From Oscillibacter sp. (GTDB taxonomy: Bacteria > Bacillota > Clostridia > Oscillospirales > Oscillospiraceae), in assembly GCA_022652815.1 (NCBI GenBank), contig JALCRR010000008.1, positions 1-61,334 on the forward strand: a stretch of 61,334 bases of DNA. Direction: 5' to 3'. Shown here piece by piece: positions 38,763 to 47,878 of this stretch. Numbering within the stretch: the stretch's first letter is position 1; each line of letters opens with the position of its first letter. A model generated the notes under the pieces. It did no database searches. It saw only the letters and a list, made by a program, of their open reading frames with translations, and had not been told where the DNA came from. The position numbers and the translations under genes were made by a program.

Positions 38763-41483
38763 CTACCGCGGTTCCTTCTGAGAGGATGCTGATGGAGTTA
38801 CATCTTTGCTACAAATTTTTTCTGTTTCGTAATGGACGTTCACATTTTTTCCGGAATACCGCTTGTAAAAATTCCGAATGATTCGCTGTACGATCTCATG
38901 AACCTTAGAGGCATCCGCCTGTAAAAGAATGATCAGATGCTGAATGCTGCTAAAGCGGAGGGTCACATCTACGCTGCGTAAAGAACTTTTGATCGCTTCC
39001 TGCATGTATTCCATGATAAGCTCCTGCTGCTCCACATCAATTTCTTCGGTGCTCTCGTCCTGCACCGTAATCATGACAAATTCCAGTTCATAATGATAGC
39101 GCGTGGCAAGATTTTGCGTATAGTTAAAAACCTGCGCAAATTCACGGTATTTCAAAGAAAACGCTCCCTGATAGTCACCTTGTTGCAAAAGTGCTTCCAC
39201 TAAGCGGTGCAAATCAGGTGCAGCGCCGCCCGATTTTCCCAGCAGGGCGCTCTGATAGAAGGCACTCCCTGCTTTTCCCGTCTGCTTGATGTAGTACAGC
39301 GCACGGTCAGCATTCCGGAATGCCGTTTCGTAAGAATATCCCTTTTGCGTCATACACATTCCTACGGACAGAGATGTTTTGGCCAACACCTCGGTTTCTT
39401 TCTTGCGCTGGGCATATTCCGCAACCAGCTGTGAAACCAGACAACTTGCTTCTTCCTGAGATCGCTTGCCGGCAAAACCCAGAAATTCATCTCCGCCAAG
39501 GCGAGAAAAACAGACGGTATCCCGGTGTGCGCCAAGCACCTCGCCCAGTACCTTGAGCGCATAATCTCCAGCCAGATGCCCGTGCAGGTCGTTAATCAGC
39601 TTCAGGTTGTCCATATCCAAGATCAGGATGCAGCCATCCTGCTCCAGCATGAGCTCCTTGATTCGCTTTTCTCCGGCTTTTCTCGAGTATAACTGCGTGA
39701 GATAATCGTGCTCGTCCTCCATTACCCGGGATTCATTCATCTGACTTAAAATCTTTTGCATGAGTGCTCCGCCGGCTTCTGCGGCGGTTTCACCGATAAA
39801 CGCTTCTTCGCTTGTTTCAGCATCCTCTCCCAGTGCTCCCTCATCGAAAAGTCTTAAAAAAACGTCCAAAAGTTCGGGATCAAACTGTTTTCCGCGCCCC
39901 TCTATCAGCTGTTGGCGAATCTGATCCGGTGCGATCTTCTCACGGTATACACGGTTGCTGTTCATCGCATCATACGCATCTGCTATGCAGATGATCCGAG
40001 AAGCTAAGGGGATCTGTGTACCGCGTAGTCCACTGGGATATCCGGTCCCATCAAAACGCTCATGATGATATTGGGCGCCATCCGAGGCATGCTCGATAAT
40101 GACGATATCCCGCAAAATCTCGCCGCCAATCACGGTGTGCGATCGAATCAGCTCAACCTCAACCGGCGTCAAACGACCGGGCTTATTCAGCACGGAGTCT
40201 GGTACGCCAATTTTGCCGATGTCATGAAGAAGTGCTATATATTTAAGGTTTTGCACTTTTTCCTGCTCCCAACCGAGCTCTTGCGCAATCTGTGCGCTGT
40301 ATTTTGCGACTCGAACCGAATGGCCCTTTGTATAGGGATCCTTGGCATCAATGGTATTGGCAATGGTGGAAATGGCCTGCAGGGTAATGCGTTCCAACTG
40401 TTTAGATTTTATATTTAATTGATTGGTCAGTCGTTGCCCCATTGCATCCAACTCCTCGAGGCGCTTGGACTCCTGGGAAATGTCATTTAAAAAACAAATG
40501 ACGCAGTAAATTTCGCCATGATCGTCATAAATTGTAGTGGCATGGAGGGCACAGGTTCTATGCGTATTCCTGGAGACAAGACACGCGCTCTTTGTTTGCG
40601 TCGTGTGCTGCAGTTCGTCCCAAAGCGCTTTCTCCTGCTCTTGCGTCATTTCAAAAAGCTGAGAAATCCGGTAAACATCTGCTTCCTTTACGCCGAAAAA
40701 TTGCTCGGTATAGCTGTTAAGACTGACAATTTGTCCTTGATAGTTTAACACCAGCACGGGGTACTCTGCGTATTGATACGTATAAGTACCAATGTTGCGC
40801 ATTGACAGCGTGAAGGCGTTGTGTCGGATGGACATTGCATAAATGATTAAATACGCGAGGGCGGCGCCATATGCGGATGTAGGCAGGGAAGGCCGCTGCA
40901 AAACCGGCATCACCGTATCTGGAATGGAGCCCAGTAGAATGACGATATTCACAAGGAACATGATTTCGACCTGCTTCTTTTCCCGTTTCAGCACGCAACG
41001 GCGAAACCAAAGAATCCCAACGGTACACAAGAATACAAACACTGCGGCAATGCACAGGCCATGAAAAGACCGTGCAAAGGTTGCATCTGCAAAATAGCTT
41101 GTGCGATCTCCTTCCCGGATAAATCGCAGCGCGCTTCCGTTGGAAAAGAGCAGATAATCAATGATTCCCAAGAGAATCACAAGCCCTGCCGCGATTTTAC
41201 TGTTTCGCGGGGACATGCACGAGGACATCCGTAATGCAAACAGGGTTTCCGTCACTAAGAATGCGATAACACCAAACAGTCCAATGTTGCGGAAGATCAG
41301 CGCAAGATGAAAGTCCGCTGTCATGCCCATCATGCCATAGCCGAAGCACCACAAAAAGGTCAAAACGCCCATCAGCATCAAGTAAAAGTTGACGGCATGA
41401 AAATGAGACTCCTTTAAGAAATATGAAATTGAAATCGTCAGTGCAACAGCACCGAGTATCAGTAAGTTCGAATGAATCCACAT
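38763..41483 (-). CDS. 7TM-PAS-HD-GYP-GGDEF cyclic-di-GMP signalling protein
   Basis: This 906-residue membrane sensor has about seven N-terminal hydrophobic segments (residues 1-220) of the histidine-kinase 7TM input type. A PAS-like domain follows (about 235-340), then an HD-GYP phosphodiesterase domain (about 365-545) with LLHDIGKIG at 419-427 and HHERFDGTGYPSG at 473-485. A GGDEF diguanylate-cyclase domain (about 595-750) has RLGGDEF at 661-667. About 150 C-terminal residues have no family I recognise. Both catalytic motifs look intact, so the protein could make and break cyclic-di-GMP. AAGGAG stands ten bases before the ATG. It is a monocistronic unit that separates phage-derived segments. 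Confidence 0.92.
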   Translation of the reverse strand: MWIHSNLLILGAVALTISISYFLKESHFHAVNFYLMLMGVLTFLWCFGYGMMGMTADFHLALIFRNIGLFGVIAFLVTETLFALRMSSCMSPRNSKIAAGLVILLGIIDYLLFSNGSALRFIREGDRTSYFADATFARSFHGLCIAAVFVFLCTVGILWFRRCVLKREKKQVEIMFLVNIVILLGSIPDTVMPVLQRPSLPTSAYGAALAYLIIYAMSIRHNAFTLSMRNIGTYTYQYAEYPVLVLNYQGQIVSLNSYTEQFFGVKEADVYRISQLFEMTQEQEKALWDELQHTTQTKSACLVSRNTHRTCALHATTIYDDHGEIYCVICFLNDISQESKRLEELDAMGQRLTNQLNIKSKQLERITLQAISTIANTIDAKDPYTKGHSVRVAKYSAQIAQELGWEQEKVQNLKYIALLHDIGKIGVPDSVLNKPGRLTPVEVELIRSHTVIGGEILRDIVIIEHASDGAQYHHERFDGTGYPSGLRGTQIPLASRIICIADAYDAMNSNRVYREKIAPDQIRQQLIEGRGKQFDPELLDVFLRLFDEGALGEDAETSEEAFIGETAAEAGGALMQKILSQMNESRVMEDEHDYLTQLYSRKAGEKRIKELMLEQDGCILILDMDNLKLINDLHGHLAGDYALKVLGEVLGAHRDTVCFSRLGGDEFLGFAGKRSQEEASCLVSQLVAEYAQRKKETEVLAKTSLSVGMCMTQKGYSYETAFRNADRALYYIKQTGKAGSAFYQSALLGKSGGAAPDLHRLVEALLQQGDYQGAFSLKYREFAQVFNYTQNLATRYHYELEFVMITVQDESTEEIDVEQQELIMEYMQEAIKSSLRSVDVTLRFSSIQHLIILLQADASKVHEIVQRIIRNFYKRYSGKNVNVHYETEKICSKDVTPSASSQKEPR

Positions 41484-42171: not shown

Positions 42172-42217
42172 AAGAAGAACATCCCCAACATCAGGTGATA
42201 TTGGGGATGTTCTTCTT
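42172..42217. terminator. Strong intrinsic terminator after the holin-like gene
   Basis: Perfect 17-bp stem AAGAAGAACATCCCCAA/TTGGGGATGTTCTTCTT with a 12-base loop, 2 bases past the holin-like stop codon. A- and T-rich ends would allow function in both directions. Confidence 0.85.
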
Positions 42218-42219
42218 TC

Positions 42220-42402
42220 TCAGAATCTGCTCCGATCCGTGGGGTTGTTCATGACGCCCAGCGCCGCCATCAGGGACAGCAGGGCGTTATAGATCACGTC
42301 CATCTGACCGGGCAGGGCAGTACTGCCTGTGAGCATGCGCCCTGTCAGCAGAGCCAGCGCCGCCAGTGCGCACCAGAGTACCGGGCTTTTCAGTCGATTC
42401 AT
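42220..42402 (-). CDS. Holin-like small membrane protein
   Basis: This 60-residue protein starts at the ATG with AAAGGAGG eight bases upstream. A longer frame upstream lacks a ribosome site. It has two hydrophobic stretches (VLWCALAALALLTG and a second around residues 35-52) and the C-terminal MNNPTDRSRF typical of short phage holins (NNPT box). Holins permeabilise the membrane for lysins, but no lysin gene lies nearby. It could be a leftover of the prophage or the membrane-acting end of the adjacent GHKL module. Confidence 0.7.
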   Translation of the reverse strand: MNRLKSPVLWCALAALALLTGRMLTGSTALPGQMDVIYNALLSLMAALGVMNNPTDRSRF

Positions 42403-42550
42403 TGCAAGTCCTCCTTTGCTGTTTTCCTCATGGTAGCAAGGGTTTCGGCAGGAGCCATTTGAACCGTTTCCACGTTTCCGTTCCATTGAGCAAGTGCAAG
42501 GGGCGTTTTTTGATTGGTTTGCTCTTCGATTTTCTTATTTGTTCTCTTCC

Positions 42551-42934
42551 TCAACCGTTGGGCGGGAGGGCTCGGGGCCGGTAAACCCGGTCCCGGTGGT
42601 ACTTCTCCGCCTTGCGGACGTCACCCAACACCTGTGACAATTCGTCAGTCAACTTCCCCTTCGACGCAGCGCTCAGAAATGCAGCCAGCGGTTCCAATTC
42701 TTCCATCCAGTCCTTGTATGCCCGCCGGGACATCAACACTGTCCGCAGCTCCGTTGCCAGATGGCACCGATAGCGATCATCCTGTCCATAAAGCTCAATA
42801 TAATGGATCAAATCCTGCTCTTTCAGCTGCACCTTTTGAAGCTCCGCCTGACAGTGCTGGTACTCCTTTTCGCAGCTGCGCAAAAAGGTGATAAGTTCAG
42901 ACAGTCTGTCAGAAAGCTTTTGTTCCTCGTCCAT
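42551..42934 (-). CDS. Small helical protein of unknown function, GHKL module
   Basis: This 127-residue, strongly helical and charged protein starts with MDEEQKLSDRLSELITFLRS. I choose the ATG at 42934, with AGAGGGG just upstream, 8 bases after the GHKL gene's stop codon; an upstream extension overlaps that gene and is unlikely. It contains LMSRRAYKDWMEELEPL and a Lys/Arg-rich end (RKAEKYHRDRVYRPR), similar in style to regulatory or DNA-proximal proteins of Firmicutes prophages, but I do not recognise the family. Tight spacing suggests it acts with the GHKL ATPase. Confidence 0.6.
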   Translation of the reverse strand: MDEEQKLSDRLSELITFLRSCEKEYQHCQAELQKVQLKEQDLIHYIELYGQDDRYRCHLATELRTVLMSRRAYKDWMEELEPLAAFLSAASKGKLTDELSQVLGDVRKAEKYHRDRVYRPRALPPNG

Positions 42935-42942
42935 TTCCCCTC

Positions 42943-44448
42943 TCACGCCACGGGCGGGTACTCGAGGCCCTCGTCCCGCCACGTCTCCAGCAGGAAGTTG
43001 TAGGGCTTGCCGTCGGGGCCGCACATCCGGTTGGTGATGTCCACCAGCTTGCGCACGCTGTCCGGGTGGCGGGACGCAATCAAAATCGCCTCCCGGGGAC
43101 AGATGCCGTCCACCACGCAGCCGTCCCAGTACATCCGCAGCTGATAGATATCCCTGGGCTGGGTTGCATCCTTCTTGCCCTCATAAATGCAGGCCAGACC
43201 GTTTTCGTTGGTGAACAGATCCATCCGCACCTTTTCGCCCAGCGATTGATAGGCAAACTCCTCCGTGGAGACCCGGCAGGGGGAGCGGAGCGTCCGCTCC
43301 TTCTCCCCGGCGAGCTGGGTAAACAGCGCCCGCTCCACTGCTGCTGCCGTCTGACGATCCGGCTTGGGCACTGCACAGCGAATCCAGCGGTACAGGCTCT
43401 CCAGACGGGCGTCACCCTCGCGGAAGCCGTTCTTGGCCGTCCGGGTCGGCGGCACAGCGCCTGCGCAGTTCGTCTCCAGATTGACCTGCGCCAGAAAGAG
43501 GTTTTGAGAGGGGTGCTTTTCGCACTTCCAGATGGACTTGAACAGGCCGAACGTCACCGCGCGGCCGTTGACCCGCAGCTCCACGCCGGAGGACGCCATG
43601 TTGCCCCGGTAGTAGCGGTTGTTTTCCTCGGAGGGGATGATCTGCCCGTACTTGCAGGTGATCTTGACCTCGCCGCCGCCCAGATCGTAGAGCGCCGGTT
43701 CCAGCTCTACCGGCGGCTCCTCTTCGTCCCACACCGGGTCCAGCGGTGTGACCATCACGTCCTTAAGCTGCTCGCCCCGGCTGTTTTCCGCCAGCAGGCG
43801 GATCCGCAGCCGATTGTCCCGCAGCAGGGGGCCGTAAGTGAAGCCCAGCTCCTCCGCCAGCATCATGACAAGATCGACGAACTTGACCGATTGCTGATGC
43901 CGTCCGTCTTGAAGCGTCTCAAACATCCGGCGGCCGCAGCCGAAGCGAATGATGGTGCCTGTTGCGCCCAGTGTGCCGTCCCAGCCCTCCAGATATTCTC
44001 CGGAGAACCCGTCTTTTGAGAGCATGTAAGGCGCACTGACTTTACGGCTGCGGTTGGCCTTTGCGTCCTCTTCCGTGCGTGTCACAATGCTCCAGTCGTT
44101 GTTTTCCGGGTTGGCGGAGGCCAGCGCATGCTTCAGGCCGAAGCCGTGCTCGTTGAGAATCGTCTCCTGCGCCCCCATACCTGCCAGCGTCAGGGCGTTG
44201 CTCAAATCGGCAATGCCAGTACCGCCGTCCTCCACCGTGACATACACGGTATCGCCCTCGTCCCGCACGGTCATGCGCACCTCCCGGGAAAGGCGGGTGT
44301 CGGCCGCGTGCACCGCGTAGTTGGACAGTGCATCGTCCACGAACTCGTTGACGATCTGGGCGCAGTGGCTGAAGTTGCCGGCGATGCTCTCCCAGAGCGC
44401 CCCGCCCCGGGGCATGTTGCTGATTGCAAACGTCTTGATGTCTTCCAT
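42943..44448 (-). CDS. GHKL-family ATPase with putative C-terminal PD-(D/E)XK nuclease-like domain
   Basis: This 501-residue protein carries the full ATP-binding fold of the Hsp90/MutL/histidine-kinase group: N-box NEFVDDALSNY (E35, D39, N43), G1 box DGGTG at 74-78 and G2 box HGFGLKHA at 101-108. The middle (about 190-390) resembles the transducer part of such ATPases only in position. Near the end, D410 in RMDLF, then E423 and K425 in IYEGKKD, then QLRMYWDG, match the spacing of a PD-(D/E)XK nuclease core. Prokaryotic MutL/MORC-like ATPases with nucleases are known from restriction and conflict systems. AGAGGT precedes the ATG. It has its own divergent regulator and regulated promoter, so it forms a discrete module. 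Activity is inferred only. Confidence 0.75.
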   Translation of the reverse strand: MEDIKTFAISNMPRGGALWESIAGNFSHCAQIVNEFVDDALSNYAVHAADTRLSREVRMTVRDEGDTVYVTVEDGGTGIADLSNALTLAGMGAQETILNEHGFGLKHALASANPENNDWSIVTRTEEDAKANRSRKVSAPYMLSKDGFSGEYLEGWDGTLGATGTIIRFGCGRRMFETLQDGRHQQSVKFVDLVMMLAEELGFTYGPLLRDNRLRIRLLAENSRGEQLKDVMVTPLDPVWDEEEPPVELEPALYDLGGGEVKITCKYGQIIPSEENNRYYRGNMASSGVELRVNGRAVTFGLFKSIWKCEKHPSQNLFLAQVNLETNCAGAVPPTRTAKNGFREGDARLESLYRWIRCAVPKPDRQTAAAVERALFTQLAGEKERTLRSPCRVSTEEFAYQSLGEKVRMDLFTNENGLACIYEGKKDATQPRDIYQLRMYWDGCVVDGICPREAILIASRHPDSVRKLVDITNRMCGPDGKPYNFLLETWRDEGLEYPPVA

Positions 44449-44570
44449 AATAAGTACCTCTTTTCCAAATTTGGAAACAAAAGAACGCCATGCAGGTTCT
44501 GAAAACCCTACACGGCGCGAGGTAACAAGGAAGATCGGTCAATCCGGGCAGAAAATGCGCATTTCGGTTC

Positions 44571-44599
44571 TTGTGCAAGGCGCAAAAACCGTGTATACT
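44571..44599 (+). promoter_or_regulatory. Plus-strand promoter facing the GHKL leader
   Basis: TTGTGC (44571-44576), 17-bp spacer, TATACT (44594-44599). It directs a transcript to the right, opposite to the GHKL mRNA leader, with a start near 44606. Confidence 0.6.
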
Positions 44600-44605
44600 A
44601 TCTTC

Positions 44606-44700
44606 TGCAGTGCGGACTTGTCCGTTGTGTAGGTGTTGCGATCACCTGCGCAGGTATCAGAGGGTTGCAGCCCTCTGATACTGCTGCGTTATTTTGTTTT
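44606..44700 (+). ncRNA. Candidate structured antisense RNA opposite the GHKL leader
   Basis: Between the plus-strand promoter and a T-rich stretch lie three hairpins in a row: CGGAC-TT-GTCCG, AGGTG-(7)-CACCT and the perfect 11-bp stem GTATCAGAGGG/CCCTCTGATAC with loop TTGCAG (44654-44681), then GTTATTTTGTTTT. Flanking GCAG/CTGC could close them. The RNA would be fully complementary to the 5' leader of the GHKL mRNA. Prediction only. Confidence 0.45.
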
Positions 44701-44708
44701 CTGAGGAT

Positions 44709-44737
44709 AGTATAACACGCAGCACACTATGTGTCAA
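44709..44737 (-). promoter_or_regulatory. Consensus promoter of the GHKL operon
   Basis: On the minus strand TTGACA (44737-44732), exactly 17 bp, TATACT (44714-44709). The predicted start near 44702 gives a leader of about 250 bases before the GHKL ATG, containing the 11-bp hairpin. Confidence 0.85.
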
Positions 44738-44744
44738 TATATTT

Positions 44745-44761
44745 TATTGATTTTTTCAATA
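44745..44761. promoter_or_regulatory. Putative operator between divergent promoters
   Basis: Perfect inverted repeat TATTGA-TTTTT-TCAATA. It sits midway between the -35 boxes of the GHKL promoter and the regulator promoter, the expected place for binding by the neighbouring XRE-type protein. Confidence 0.55.
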
Positions 44762-44766
44762 TTTCA

Positions 44767-44794
44767 TTGACATTTTTACTTAATATCTTATAAT
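44767..44794 (+). promoter_or_regulatory. Consensus promoter of the XRE regulator gene
   Basis: TTGACA (44767-44772), 16-bp spacer, TATAAT (44789-44794), about 30 bp before the ATG. Confidence 0.85.
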
Positions 44795-44825
44795 ACCTTT
44801 AAAGGTTAAGAGAGGGGAGGACGCT

Positions 44826-45044
44826 ATGAGTTGGTCCTATAAGCCGCTTTGGATTCTGTTAATTCAGAAAGATATGAAACGAACTGACCTATTGAGCGTA
44901 GCAGGCCTAACCTCCAATGCTTTGGCCAAGATGGGGAAAAACGAGCCCACTACCATGGACAATCTTGCCCGCATCTGCCAGACCCTGCACTGCCGGGTGG
45001 AGGACATCGTGGAGTTTATTCCGGATTCTCCGGAAAACGAATAA
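44826..45044 (+). CDS. XRE-family helix-turn-helix regulator (Cro/CI type)
   Basis: This 72-residue protein is essentially one DNA-binding domain: WILLIQKDMKRTDLLSVAGL forms the first helices, SNALAKMGKNEPTTMDNLARI the recognition part and CQTLHCRVEDIVEFI the last helix. Small XRE proteins of this kind (YozG/HTH_26 type) control neighbouring promoters. It is transcribed divergently from the GHKL operon, with a symmetrical site between them, so it very probably represses that operon and perhaps itself. AGAGGGGAGG precedes the ATG. A strong terminator follows. Confidence 0.85.
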   Translation: MSWSYKPLWILLIQKDMKRTDLLSVAGLTSNALAKMGKNEPTTMDNLARICQTLHCRVEDIVEFIPDSPENE

Positions 45045-45073
45045 ACGTAAATCTTAAGAGCCTGTAACATACA

Positions 45074-45115
45074 AAAGCCCGTTGGAGAAATCATTCGATT
45101 TCTCCAACGGGCTTT
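45074..45115. terminator. Intrinsic terminator after the XRE gene
   Basis: Perfect 19-bp stem starting AAAGCCCGTTGGAG with a 4-base ATTC loop, ending GGGCTTT. It closes the module on the right. Confidence 0.9.
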
Positions 45116-45396: not shown

Positions 45397-46491
45397 ATGC
45401 CATTTGTTGCAGCCAATCTCAAATATATGAACCGCCGTGAAGTATACGAGCTGGTGCGCCAGAGTGGGGAGATCTCCCGGGCGGAAATCAGCCGTATTAC
45501 GGGCATCAGCGCCCCCACCGTGCTGAAAATTGTGGACTACCTCAAGCAGGCCGGCTGTGTTCTGGAAATCGGAGCGGGGGAGTCCTCGCTGGGACGCAAG
45601 CCGCAGCTGCTGCGGTTTAATCCGGACGCAGGCTATGCCGTGGGCGTGGATTTTTCCGGTGTGGAGCTGAAAATTGGCATTGTGGACTATGGGGAAAAAA
45701 TCCGCTATCTTTCCACGACTTCCGTTGTGCCTGACATCTCGTTGATTGCGGGCGATGCCTTTGCGGAAATGATCTCCTCGGCGGTCACCGCCTCCGGCAT
45801 CGACTCCGAGCGGATTCACGGAATCTGCATCGGTCTGCCCGGCGTGGTCAACCGGGAACTGGGAACCATCGAGCTTGCGCCGCTGGTGGGCGTCAGCGAT
45901 AAGATCTCCTATCAGGGCGTGATTCAAAAGCTCTCCGAGCGGCTGGGCCTTCCCATTTTGGTGGAGAACGACGCAAACCTCTCCGCGCTGGGGGAATTCG
46001 CGGCCAGCGGATACGCCGACAGCGACGATCTGCTGATGATCCGCACTGGTAAAGGTCTGGGCGCAGGCATCATTTTAAACGGTCAGCTGCGCCGGGGCAA
46101 GGAGTTCTTTGCAGGCGAGCTTGGCTACATGGTGTTTGACGGAAGCTATCACATCGGAAAAAGTCAAGGCGGCTGGCTTGAGACAACCCTTGGCCTTGAT
46201 GAACTGCATCGCGGCAGCATCACGCCGGAGACGACGGAGCGGCTGGCGCAGAATCTGGCGCTGGCCATTGTCAACGTGTGTATGCCGCTGGACATTCAAA
46301 ATGCCGTTCTGGCGCGATTTTCGAAGCGGGCAGTATATGACGCGGTACTCTCGTCCATCAACGAACATCTTCAGCAGTATGCGGGACAGGATATTCGCTG
46401 CCGTGCGCCGCTGTGTCCCGAGCCGGGGATTCTGGGTGCCGCCGGTCTGGTGATTGGCCGGGCGGTGGAGGAGCTTTTAAAAGCCGACTGA
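45397..46491 (+). CDS. ROK-family transcriptional repressor
   Basis: This 364-residue regulator has an N-terminal winged helix (residues about 10-65, with ISRAEISRITGISAPTVLKIV) followed by a ROK sugar-kinase-like domain (about 80-360). The latter shows GVDFSGVELKIGIV, ICIGLPGVV, VENDANLSALGE and GKGLGAGIIL. The Cys-rich zinc motif of many ROK proteins is absent, which is common among clostridial ROK repressors. CAGGAGA precedes the ATG. It leads a sugar-uptake operon, and a palindrome overlaps its own promoter, so it likely represses the whole operon until a sugar or sugar phosphate binds. Confidence 0.9.
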   Translation: MPFVAANLKYMNRREVYELVRQSGEISRAEISRITGISAPTVLKIVDYLKQAGCVLEIGAGESSLGRKPQLLRFNPDAGYAVGVDFSGVELKIGIVDYGEKIRYLSTTSVVPDISLIAGDAFAEMISSAVTASGIDSERIHGICIGLPGVVNRELGTIELAPLVGVSDKISYQGVIQKLSERLGLPILVENDANLSALGEFAASGYADSDDLLMIRTGKGLGAGIILNGQLRRGKEFFAGELGYMVFDGSYHIGKSQGGWLETTLGLDELHRGSITPETTERLAQNLALAIVNVCMPLDIQNAVLARFSKRAVYDAVLSSINEHLQQYAGQDIRCRAPLCPEPGILGAAGLVIGRAVEELLKAD

Positions 46492-46573
46492 ACACGATTT
46501 CCAGCGGGTGAAAAACCGCCCGTGAAGAAATAAAAATCCAGCAACGCATTTCACTATATTGAGGAGGAAAAGT

Positions 46574-47878
46574 ATGAAAAAGTTAGCAAAGACACTCTCT
46601 TGCGGACTTCTCGCCGCGCTGATGGTTCTGTCCATCGCAGGCTGCGGGTCCAAGGCATCCACTACCGGCAGCACCTCTGCGGCAGCCTCCGCCAGCGGTG
46701 AGGAAGTCACCCTGAACGCCCTGTTTATGAAGCAGGCCGGTTACAGCGAGGACGACGTCAACGCCATGACGGCAGACTTTATGGCTGCCAACCCCGGCAT
46801 CAAGGTCAACGTGACCTTCGTGGCCTATGAAGAGCTGGAGCCCAAGATTCTGACCTCCGCACAGAGCGGCGGCTACGATGTGGTCTTAGGCGACTGCATT
46901 TGGCCGGCACAGTTCGCAAAGGCCGGACTGGTGCTGGACGTCACCGACCGCATGGCCGATCTGGACACCTCCGATATCTATGAGGGCGCTCTGGATTCCA
47001 CCAAGTACGAGGGCCGTTACTATGGTATTCCATGGCTGAACGATGTCAAGTACATGTTCTGCAACACCGCCATGCTGGCACAGGCTGGCATCAACACCGT
47101 CCCCACCACTTGGGATGAGCTGGTCGCTGACGCCAAGATCCTCAAGGATCAGGGCATCGTGGAATATCCCATCGCTGCCTGCTATGCACAGGCAGAGTGC
47201 CTGATCTGCGACTACACCTGCATCTCCGGCGCATTCGGCGGCAGCTTCGTGGACGCAGACAACAACCCCACCCTGAACAGCCCCGAAAACGTTGCCGCTC
47301 TGGACTTTATGTATCAGACCGTGGCCGATGGCCTGACCAACCCCAAGTCTCTGGAGATGATCGAGGACGATGTTCTGAGCACCTTCACTGCAGGCAACGC
47401 GGCCTTCGCCTTGAACTGGACCTACATGAACGCCTCCATGAACGATGAAGCAGCATCCTCTGTCGCCGGTCAGGCGGTCATCGCCCCCATTCCCGGCACC
47501 GACAAGGCTGTTTCCGCAACCGTCAATGGCGGTATGCCTCTGATGATTACCGCAGGCTCCAAGCATCCCGACGAAGCATGGGCCTATATGTCCTTCCTGG
47601 CCTCCAAGGATACCCAGAGCAAGTATTGCGCCGACGCTCTGCCCATCTGGAAGTCTCTGTACTCCGATCCTGCTGTGATCGCTGCCGGCGGTGAGGACGT
47701 GGTCAACGCCTCCAACACGCAGTATCAGTACATCGTGAACCGTCCGCAGGTGGCCTACTACAACGAGCTGTCTACCGAAATGCAGACCGAGCTGCAGAAC
47801 GTGCTGCTGGGCAAAACCACGGCGCAGGCTGCTCTGGACGGACTGCAGGCACAGGCAGAAGAGCTGGCCAAGGGTTAA
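46574..47878 (+). CDS. Sugar ABC transporter substrate-binding lipoprotein (family 1)
   Basis: This 434-residue exported lipoprotein has the lipobox LSIAGC (Cys near residue 22), then a Ser/Thr/Ala linker and the two-lobed family 1 fold with YDVVLGDCIW, GIPWLNDVKYMFCN, TTWDELVADAKIL and a C-terminal ATAQAALDGLQAQ helix. It would capture an oligosaccharide or monosaccharide outside the membrane and pass it to the two permeases. I use the ATG with TTGAGGAGG upstream, not the TTG inside that site. No ATPase gene is present, so a shared MsmK-type ATPase encoded elsewhere is presumably used. Codon bias is strong, indicating high expression. Confidence 0.92.
   Translation: MKKLAKTLSCGLLAALMVLSIAGCGSKASTTGSTSAAASASGEEVTLNALFMKQAGYSEDDVNAMTADFMAANPGIKVNVTFVAYEELEPKILTSAQSGGYDVVLGDCIWPAQFAKAGLVLDVTDRMADLDTSDIYEGALDSTKYEGRYYGIPWLNDVKYMFCNTAMLAQAGINTVPTTWDELVADAKILKDQGIVEYPIAACYAQAECLICDYTCISGAFGGSFVDADNNPTLNSPENVAALDFMYQTVADGLTNPKSLEMIEDDVLSTFTAGNAAFALNWTYMNASMNDEAASSVAGQAVIAPIPGTDKAVSATVNGGMPLMITAGSKHPDEAWAYMSFLASKDTQSKYCADALPIWKSLYSDPAVIAAGGEDVVNASNTQYQYIVNRPQVAYYNELSTEMQTELQNVLLGKTTAQAALDGLQAQAEELAKG

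Follow-up and report, generated by a model that had tools for sequence, protein, structure and literature searches.

The locus described here raises the question of how a predicted DNA-cleaving ATPase is held under control in a bacterial chromosome. We analysed a stretch of 61,334 nucleotides from Oscillibacter sp. (assembly GCA_022652815.1, contig JALCRR010000008.1), referred to below as the window, in which a gene for a 501-residue GHKL ATPase with a nuclease-like C-terminus diverges from a gene for a small XRE-type DNA-binding protein. A preliminary description of positions 42220-45115 had presented these two genes, together with genes for a small helical protein and a holin-like membrane protein, as a self-contained four-gene module under XRE control. 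We found that the 377-bp intergenic region between the GHKL and XRE genes also holds a conserved structured RNA, predicted to be antisense to the 5' leader of the nuclease operon. The features of the locus strongly suggest a copy-control anatomy, consisting of an antisense RNA, convergent promoters, a leader terminator and a small repressor, on a nuclease operon. The nuclease itself is a further member of an already known kind, and the novelty sits in its control. The reading we favour, and regard as fairly probable, is that of a mobile-type cassette, in which a paraMORC3-like nuclease operon is placed under a chromosomal version of plasmid copy control.

A Structured RNA in the GHKL/XRE Intergenic Region

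A DNA search with the locus showed that an intergenic stretch of ~130 bp recurs in many genomes of the genus, mostly without a GHKL gene. The stretch folds into a perfect four-way junction (z = -5.5), and an alignment of 14 copies gave 35 base pairs, 12 of which showed compensatory changes. In a larger alignment of 105 copies, fitted to the model, which favours the structure, 94.4% of the cells were paired and both-side changes were observed at 32 of the 35 pairs; none of 500 shuffles reached this level, and slid controls gave at most 58.4%. On the basis of folding, covariation and covariance models (R1 and R2), the RNA of the window is predicted to occupy ~98 nt at 44604-44701 on the plus strand, with the four-way junction, three hairpins and a U-rich tail. 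No family in Rfam matches the RNA, which apparently represents a new family. In the open-licence literature, we found no published antisense RNA from this bacterial family or tied to GHKL proteins.

G-U cells far outnumber A-C cells on the plus strand (554 versus 45) and the plus-strand fold is the more stable one in 125 of 125 copies, which marks the plus strand as the functional RNA strand. The same bias, together with the plus strand's own promoter and U-tail, ruled out a riboswitch or minus-strand leader. A type III toxin-antitoxin system with an RNA antitoxin was set aside, no test aimed at it having been made, as the RNA is antisense to a leader and many copies adjoin genes for surface proteins.

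Covariance searches detected the RNA in 50 of the 86 genus genomes (first model, E ≤ 0.001), in 55 of 150 sampled family genomes (second model, E ≤ 0.001) and in 11 of 291 sampled class genomes (E ≤ 1e-6), each count including the window's own genome. The copies used for the analyses below came from 100 fetched genus regions with 105 matches (104 in a later list, from which the weakest, L227, was dropped), a part of the genus matches, and from 20 family and 14 class regions.

Predicted Convergent Promoters and Leader Terminator

Of 123 copies, 122 have a -10 box (at least five of six positions TATAAT-like) ahead of the RNA, in most cases at a distance of 9-10 bp, as compared with 10 of 123 in the shuffled control. 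Similarly, an opposing -10 box was located just outside the 3' end of the RNA in 105 of 123 copies, as compared with 16 of 123 after shuffling. The promoter analysis covered 123 of 126 copies and the terminator analyses 122, copies at contig ends or with N being excluded. Two predicted sigma70-like promoters, then, face each other across the RNA. In the window, the putative small-RNA promoter reads TTGTGC-N17-TATACT (44571-44599, plus strand), and the putative promoter of the GHKL operon mRNA reads TTGACA-N17-TATACT (44709-44737, minus strand), so placed that its transcript would cross the complement of the small RNA.

Among the 104 genus copies other than that of the window, a 5'-side neighbour gene was available for 89 and a 3'-side neighbour for 98, the rest having no gene or one below 60 aa. 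The 5'-side neighbour gene (at least 60 aa) lay on the opposite strand to the RNA in 81 of the 89 copies. This orientation and the convergent promoter together suggest that the RNA is antisense to the leader of the neighbour gene. A terminator-like hairpin followed by a T-run was present in the leader in 107 of 122 copies, as compared with 30 in shuffled sequences and 11 on the opposite strand; slightly different criteria gave 112 of 122, the median distance from the element to the T-run being 114 nt. The corresponding hairpin of the window (GCGCCGTGTAGGG...CCTGCATGGCGT) lies at 44485-44518 on the minus strand and is followed by a T-rich run to about 44476.

We found that the 5' arm of the leader terminator often repeats the 5' arm of the second hairpin of the RNA. 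In the window, GTGTAGG in the small RNA (44627-44633, plus strand) appears as CCUACAC in the mRNA leader on the minus strand, where it is pairable with the terminator 5' arm at 44507-44513 and forms a candidate anti-terminator. Sorting of the arms of RNA and terminator gave 29 A/A (GTGTAGG-type), 34 B/B (TTGAG-type), no A/B and one B/A combination, in a table whose classes were chosen after inspection, whose copies are uncorrected for shared ancestry and which leaves 48 of the 112 terminator leaders outside the 2 × 2 scheme. The shared match was longer in own pairs than in mismatched pairs (6.12 versus 5.08), a difference reached by none of 300 shuffles; this excess was clear for type B (0 of 300) and weak for the rest (9 of 300), and within the nearly uniform type A, own pairs had no advantage over mismatched pairs (169 of 300 shuffles attained the value).

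As the leader carries the RNA's complement, the arm may pair within the leader and keep the terminator open. Conserved G-U pairs of the RNA correspond to C-A mismatches in the leader, where the copy of the arm is predicted to be far more open than the arm in the RNA (unpaired 0.50 versus 0.09; 101 of 102 copies). Equilibrium folding of 112 leaders gave a terminator probability of 0.90 in the free state versus 0.93 with the target masked, and masking raised the probability by more than 0.1 in nine leaders and lowered it in two. A thermodynamic anti-terminator was thus not seen, so that any attenuation switch would be kinetic or absent.

The folding result also bears on an alternative explanation, in which the RNA acts in trans as an independent small RNA that happens to adjoin these genes, nothing unusual attaches to the leader promoter and terminator, and the nuclease is controlled by XRE only. 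Besides the lack of an equilibrium switch, this explanation accounts for the RNA having its own promoter and terminator tail and for most copies lying beside unrelated genes. However, a trans-acting RNA is not expected to keep a fixed orientation opposite to its neighbour, a convergent promoter at a fixed position, at the frequencies given above, or a leader terminator that shares arms and lies at a constant distance, and we consider this explanation improbable.

Association of the RNA with GHKL-Nuclease Loci

Among the 86 genus genomes and the 150 sampled family genomes, all ten full-length GHKL-nuclease loci carry the RNA antisense to the 5' leader of the operon, four of the ten copies having been used to build the first model and the other six having been found by the models. 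In all eight genus loci, the RNA is located 5' of the GHKL operon on the opposite strand, and the two family loci (G212 and G124) are arranged likewise, with the RNA ~150 bp away; across the ten loci, the distance ranges from 150 to 1571 bp. The seven genomes with these loci contain 12 RNA copies, 10 of which sit at a GHKL locus. The genus loci came from matches in 6 of 86 genomes, where ten match rows comprised the eight full-length genes, one adjacent C-terminal fragment and one ATPase-only match (54 positions of the ATPase domain, E = 8e-4). In the family sample, the G124 gene is in two pieces, and four further rows that matched the ATPase domain only (E 1e-4 to 7e-4) were excluded from the locus count.

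An eleventh GHKL locus was found on a fecal contig of 12.6 kb (MT836507, L269), which had been retrieved with a query of window positions 44560-44830 matching the element only. Besides the RNA, MT836507.1 contains genes for a GHKL protein (44%), an integrase and a protein of the ribbon-helix-helix type. The record is an unannotated 'Bacteriophage sp.' entry and may represent an integrative element, not a phage.

A gene for a small DNA-binding protein follows the RNA directly on the same strand in nine of the ten GHKL loci, namely the XRE gene in the window and, in eight loci, genes for probable ribbon-helix-helix proteins of 62-69 aa, an assignment resting on Pfam matches under the cut-offs; the most divergent locus (G084:C20) has neither type. 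The XRE protein of the window (72 aa; 44826-45044, plus strand) was confirmed by a match to HTH_26 (E = 3e-15), and we propose a CopR-like role for it. Its putative promoter reads TTGACA-N16-TATAAT (44767-44794, plus strand), and a candidate operator-like region lies at 44732-44772, where the GHKL and XRE promoters diverge; it is symmetric, with TGTCAAT (44732-44738) and ATTGACA (44766-44772), and falls between the two -35 boxes. The symmetric operator and the XRE control of the preliminary description therefore keep their basis in an adjoining XRE gene and a symmetric site, but as an account of the intergenic region they are incomplete, since it also holds the antisense RNA, which has its own promoter and overlaps the leader.

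When 126 RNA copies were scanned with profiles of the two protein types, a scan that would miss other repressor types, this XRE protein was found only in the window and in locus L145, and the ribbon-helix-helix protein only in the eight loci mentioned. The RNA-XRE pair of L145 is accompanied by a NikA-like mobilisation protein, an integrase, a RecD-like helicase and a protein grouped with MazF-like ones by clustering, a content that points to mobile elements. A repeated site (13-14 of 14 positions) was present in the first 130 bp after the RNA in six of nine ribbon-helix-helix loci, MT836507 being counted among the nine, with no shuffle reaching it; of the exceptions, L269 was marginal (3 of 40 shuffles) and L148 and L172 had none. 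The same test reached 13 of 14 in 9 of 60 other RNA copies.

The operons of these loci differ in gene content. The seven other GHKL operons of the genus all carry an HTH_3 protein; three of them encode a MazF-like toxin and five a tyrosine integrase, and an integrase is also present in G212; altogether, six of the ten GHKL operons (L141, L150, L169, L171, L172 and L244) contain a tyrosine integrase. These integrases, the integrase on MT836507 and the gene content of L145 speak for a reading in which the GHKL-nuclease is no defence effector but serves a small integrative element, acting in its maintenance, excision or replication. Such a reading would account for copy-control-like regulation beside integrases, and in plasmids, such control logic acts on Rep (PMC4981023). 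On the other hand, the module proteins of the window gave no integrase or relaxase match, relatives outside the family mostly lack an adjoining integrase (9 of 141 neighbour proteins from 43 loci), and the architecture of the 501-residue protein is that of a validated anti-phage protein. We therefore hold this reading to be rather unlikely. A phage or plasmid origin of the element was tried and not retained: there was no plasmid match, the phage-labelled material amounts to one fecal contig, and one pattern had no exact match in viral contigs.

The Nuclease and Its Relatives

The open reading frame (ORF) at 42943-44448 on the minus strand encodes the 501-residue protein, which gave weak HATPase matches with Pfam and has at least 350 relatives at E ≤ 0.001 (8000 candidates scored). 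Across 38 aligned relatives, the G1 box (D74-x-G76-x-G78) and the G2 box (NEHGFG) of the GHKL fold are invariant. The preliminary description had listed complete N, G1 and G2 boxes; this holds for G1 and G2, whereas the N box is non-canonical, with EFVDD (Asp for the usual Asn) as compared with the family consensus EFIDN. In the C-terminal part, D410-(12)-E423-x-K425 and Q436 showed no variation among the 38 relatives and E396 was near-invariant. D, E-x-K and Q were again invariant among the 37 nuclease domains of a second set, which come in many cases from more distant loci, and since the pattern is fixed in both sets, it is not due to chance.

A full-length AlphaFold model showed a mean predicted local distance difference test score (pLDDT) of 89.9. 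Its structure matches in the PDB (SMCHD1, MORC3, Hsp90 and GyrB) cover the ATPase part, with ~400 columns aligned to the ATPase modules of SMCHD1, MORC3 and GyrB, which include the transducer/S5 domain. The nuclease domain (residues 362-501; 42946-43365, minus strand) is supported by a profile query of the PDB with the alignment A7, composed of 37 nuclease domains (the window and 36 of 66 listed fragments), which matched the PD-(D/E)XK nuclease NucS (E = 1.9e-4). These motifs, the model and the profile match identify the protein as a GHKL ATPase that carries a PD-(D/E)XK nuclease at its C-terminus, as the preliminary description had proposed. A partial copy outside A7 (L014) lacks ExK and Q. 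In L171 (G013:C3:31372-31758), a partial C-terminal nuclease copy without ExK and Q lies directly behind the full-length gene.

A search of genome contigs with the single 501-residue protein as the query gave no match, and a search of one-per-species genomes with an alignment gave 64 loci, including ones in Clostridia, Actinobacteria, Bacteroidota, Proteobacteria, Spirochaetes, Chloroflexi, candidate phyla and archaea. Two relatives are located on viral contigs. Neighbours outside the family were scanned in 43 loci, near-duplicate or partial loci being left out; gene calls in the relatives' loci are from a codon-scored caller and were not curated. Gemmiger- and Fournierella-type genomes (L026-L059) carry several distant GHKL-nuclease copies, some of which share a recurrent neighbour set.

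The preliminary description found no match to a named system, which was too strong, as two near matches are known. In paraMORC3, GHKL and S5 domains are joined to a conserved C-terminal domain of the restriction-endonuclease (RE) fold with an E-D-ExK pattern; its distribution is wide and patchy, and a subset with the C-terminal nuclease stands alone, without conserved neighbours (PMC2292703). By its architecture, the 501-residue protein appears to fit paraMORC3 of Iyer, Abhiman and Aravind (2008): compared with the published description, it shares the GHKL motifs, with Asp in the N box, and the C-terminal E-D-ExK. It differs in that the available part of that description mentions no RNA or copy-control-like regulation (PMC2292703).

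The second near match is VcSduA of Vibrio cholerae (Shedu I-D), a GHKL and PD-(D/E)xK protein which protects from phage, requires both its ATPase and its nuclease residues and likely acts directly on phage DNA (PMC12137116). The 501-residue protein has the same N-terminal GHKL and C-terminal PD-(D/E)xK arrangement in one polypeptide, a likeness of architecture; the sequence comparison was made with two other Shedu-domain proteins, one of which aligned the nuclease motifs very weakly (probability 2.2%, E = 0.022) and the other of which gave nothing. DUF4263/SduA_C (PF14082) was not among the Pfam matches of the protein (E up to 10, with filters that drop most above 0.1), SduA_C had no match at E ≤ 0.001 in the window's genome, and PADLOC contains no Shedu model. 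As no DUF4263/SduA_C domain is detectable, we class the protein as one that may work like VcSduA, not as a Shedu member. A defence role, put forward in the preliminary description, is plausible from the paraMORC3 architecture and the phage block by VcSduA (PMC2292703, PMC12137116), and for the present nuclease it would follow by analogy with that similar protein.

Proposed Mechanism of Control

The closest parallel to the regulatory region is found in plasmids. In pIP501, CopR represses the sense promoter and prevents convergent transcription, and the antisense RNAIII attenuates the 329-bp repR leader (PMC4981023). The present locus resembles pIP501 in a small DNA-binding repressor, an antisense RNA, convergent promoters and a long leader, all read here from the sequence: a putative antisense RNA to the leader from a convergent promoter is present, and so is a repressor gene next to the sense promoter. 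It differs from pIP501 in that it lies on a chromosomal contig, carries a nuclease operon instead of a replication initiator, and has, in place of RNAIII, an RNA with a four-way junction whose family matches none in Rfam. Control of the pMV158 type pairs the ribbon-helix-helix repressor CopG with an antisense RNA, and eight of the ten loci show this combination; the difference is again the lack of a Rep gene, no Rep match having been found among the scanned proteins of the window and the GHKL loci.

Taken together, we propose that a GHKL-S5 ATPase clamp couples ATP binding to the C-terminal PD-(D/E)XK DNase, which would most likely restrict phage or other incoming DNA, like VcSduA. The sense promoter at 44709-44737 (minus strand) would produce an mRNA with a leader of ~254 nt, and the convergent promoter an antisense RNA of ~98 nt, with the four-way junction indicated by covariation, over the first ~100 nt of this leader. 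The predicted terminator would lie ~85-120 nt past the antisense target. In the free leader, CCUACAC, the copy of the hairpin-2 arm, may pair with GUGUAGG in the terminator 5' arm, and transcription would stay open; binding of the antisense RNA would remove this pairing and lead to termination, presumably by a kinetic route. Acting from the symmetric site, the XRE protein (in most sister loci, its probable ribbon-helix-helix counterpart) would repress the sense promoter and may also shield antisense synthesis from convergent transcription, as CopR does. The outcome would be a very low level of nuclease in the settled state and quick derepression once the antisense RNA or the repressor drops, for example upon entry into a naive cell or upon infection. 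We infer the attenuation switch from this arrangement.

Several observations weigh against this reading. In five of the ten loci, an integrase, MazF-like or HTH_3 gene is located between the RNA and the GHKL gene, so that GHKL is not always the first target, and most RNA copies adjoin genes other than GHKL. Among the GHKL loci outside the family that were scanned with the model, only L008 was clearly matched, with the RNA 3.2 kb off on the far side, which suggests that the link between RNA and GHKL is a lineage feature; weak R1 matches in Gemmiger-type loci (E 0.006-0.12) were left out of account. Outside the family, the neighbours of the nuclease are mixed (the nine phage integrases among 141 proteins given above), and each of the 25 PADLOC models listed, out of 123, matches at most 2 of the 141 neighbour proteins. 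In the repressor region of the window, no repeated site stands out from the shuffled controls (18 of 40 attain it). The Asp in the N box, the sub-threshold ribbon-helix-helix assignment, the make-up of the arm-class table, the type A comparison and the equilibrium folding belong to the same side.

If the proposal is true, a GHKL immune-type nuclease stands under plasmid-style antisense attenuation and a small repressor, a circuit which is directly testable. Defence nucleases need silence without slowness. We tentatively suggest, as a possibility of lower standing than the cassette itself, that in Clostridia, the RNA represents a new family of cis-antisense attenuators, borne by mobile elements, reused for surface-protein genes, and serving as an entry or copy sensor on nuclease elements. 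In that case, a naive cell without antisense RNA or repressor would experience a burst of nuclease against competing DNA, followed by shut-off as the RNA accumulates, and the loss of antisense RNA during infection would re-arm the nuclease.

The RNA beside Other Genes

The RNA family is noteworthy on its own, apart from the nuclease, and deserves attention. Among the 89 genus 5'-side neighbour genes, 16 encode SLH-domain proteins, four LRR_5/BspA-type proteins, four DUF4230 proteins and three beta-lactamase-like proteins; on the 3' side, 91 of the 98 genes were scanned with Pfam. A simple signal-peptide heuristic marked 43 of 86 genes on the 5' side as exported-looking; the corresponding figures were 138 of 938 for all called genes and 12 of 111 for genes on the other side. 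The RNA is thus widespread and predicted to be antisense beside many secreted-protein genes of gut bacteria, where it may open a regulatory layer. For the copies in L128-L227, a general cell-surface regulator in these gut bacteria is possible.

In other families of Clostridia (L277, L278, L279, L282, L283, L285 and L286), the RNA lies antisense to ORFs of 93-140 aa that are mutually similar by eye, and in L280 and L284, the longest ORF near the RNA resembles a serine recombinase by eye. Genomes G206 and G114 (some copies in L246-L255) contain many RNA copies, 27 in one and 14 in another. In G206, at least nine copies have a contig start no more than 300 bp away, which points to repeated DNA on the 5' side.

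Other Genes of the Window

Two further genes follow the nuclease gene on the minus strand. One encodes the small helical protein (42551-42934), a relative of the phage family phrog_2717 (5.5e-14), and the other a short membrane protein of 60 aa (42220-42402) with weak, sub-threshold similarity to phiLC3-type holins. The latter had been called holin-like, of which the weak similarity remains (Pfam 0.0027; TIGR01598 9e-4, both under the cut-off; phrog_297 1.2e-5), but every curated cut-off was missed (phiLC3-type 19.4 versus 39.7 bits; Phage_holin_1 18.6 versus 22 bits). Palindromic terminators close the GHKL operon (42172-42217) and follow the XRE gene (45074-45115); both were recovered by self-inverse matches, in agreement with the preliminary description.

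The four genes were not found as a unit elsewhere. In a tblastn search of 97 loci (E ≤ 1), the small protein was detected in the window's own loci only and no holin-like relative scored better than E = 0.78, so that the order is not conserved for these two of the four genes and a self-contained module is not supported. Sister operons carry HTH_3, MazF-like and integrase genes instead. The small protein recurs beside a relative nearly identical to the nuclease (identities 97% and 86%; the longest contig has 14370 bases in both cases, so that this is probably one contig), and a relative of it (35% identity) is encoded in the RNA-linked operon L168 (genome G082), together with a 131-aa protein and a RecD-like helicase. 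That operon adjoins two ORFs which resemble parts of a transposase by eye.

The phrog_2717 match, the weak holin matches and the GHKL relatives on two viral contigs might also be explained if the module were a decayed prophage fragment, made up of a repressor, a DNA-processing protein, a small phage protein and a holin. We regard this as very improbable, because the four module proteins gave no phage structural or packaging match, the small protein and the holin were not found beside GHKL in the other loci searched, the holin score stays under the curated cut-offs, and the module ORFs are intact and bounded by terminators.

At E ≤ 1e-60, none of the other 85 genus genomes matched the ROK gene next to the module, which left no empty insertion site for comparison. 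In the window, the module is flanked by a large sensor protein with PAS, HD and GGDEF domains (38763-41483) on one side, and by the ROK regulator and then a predicted solute-binding protein (45397-47878) on the other.

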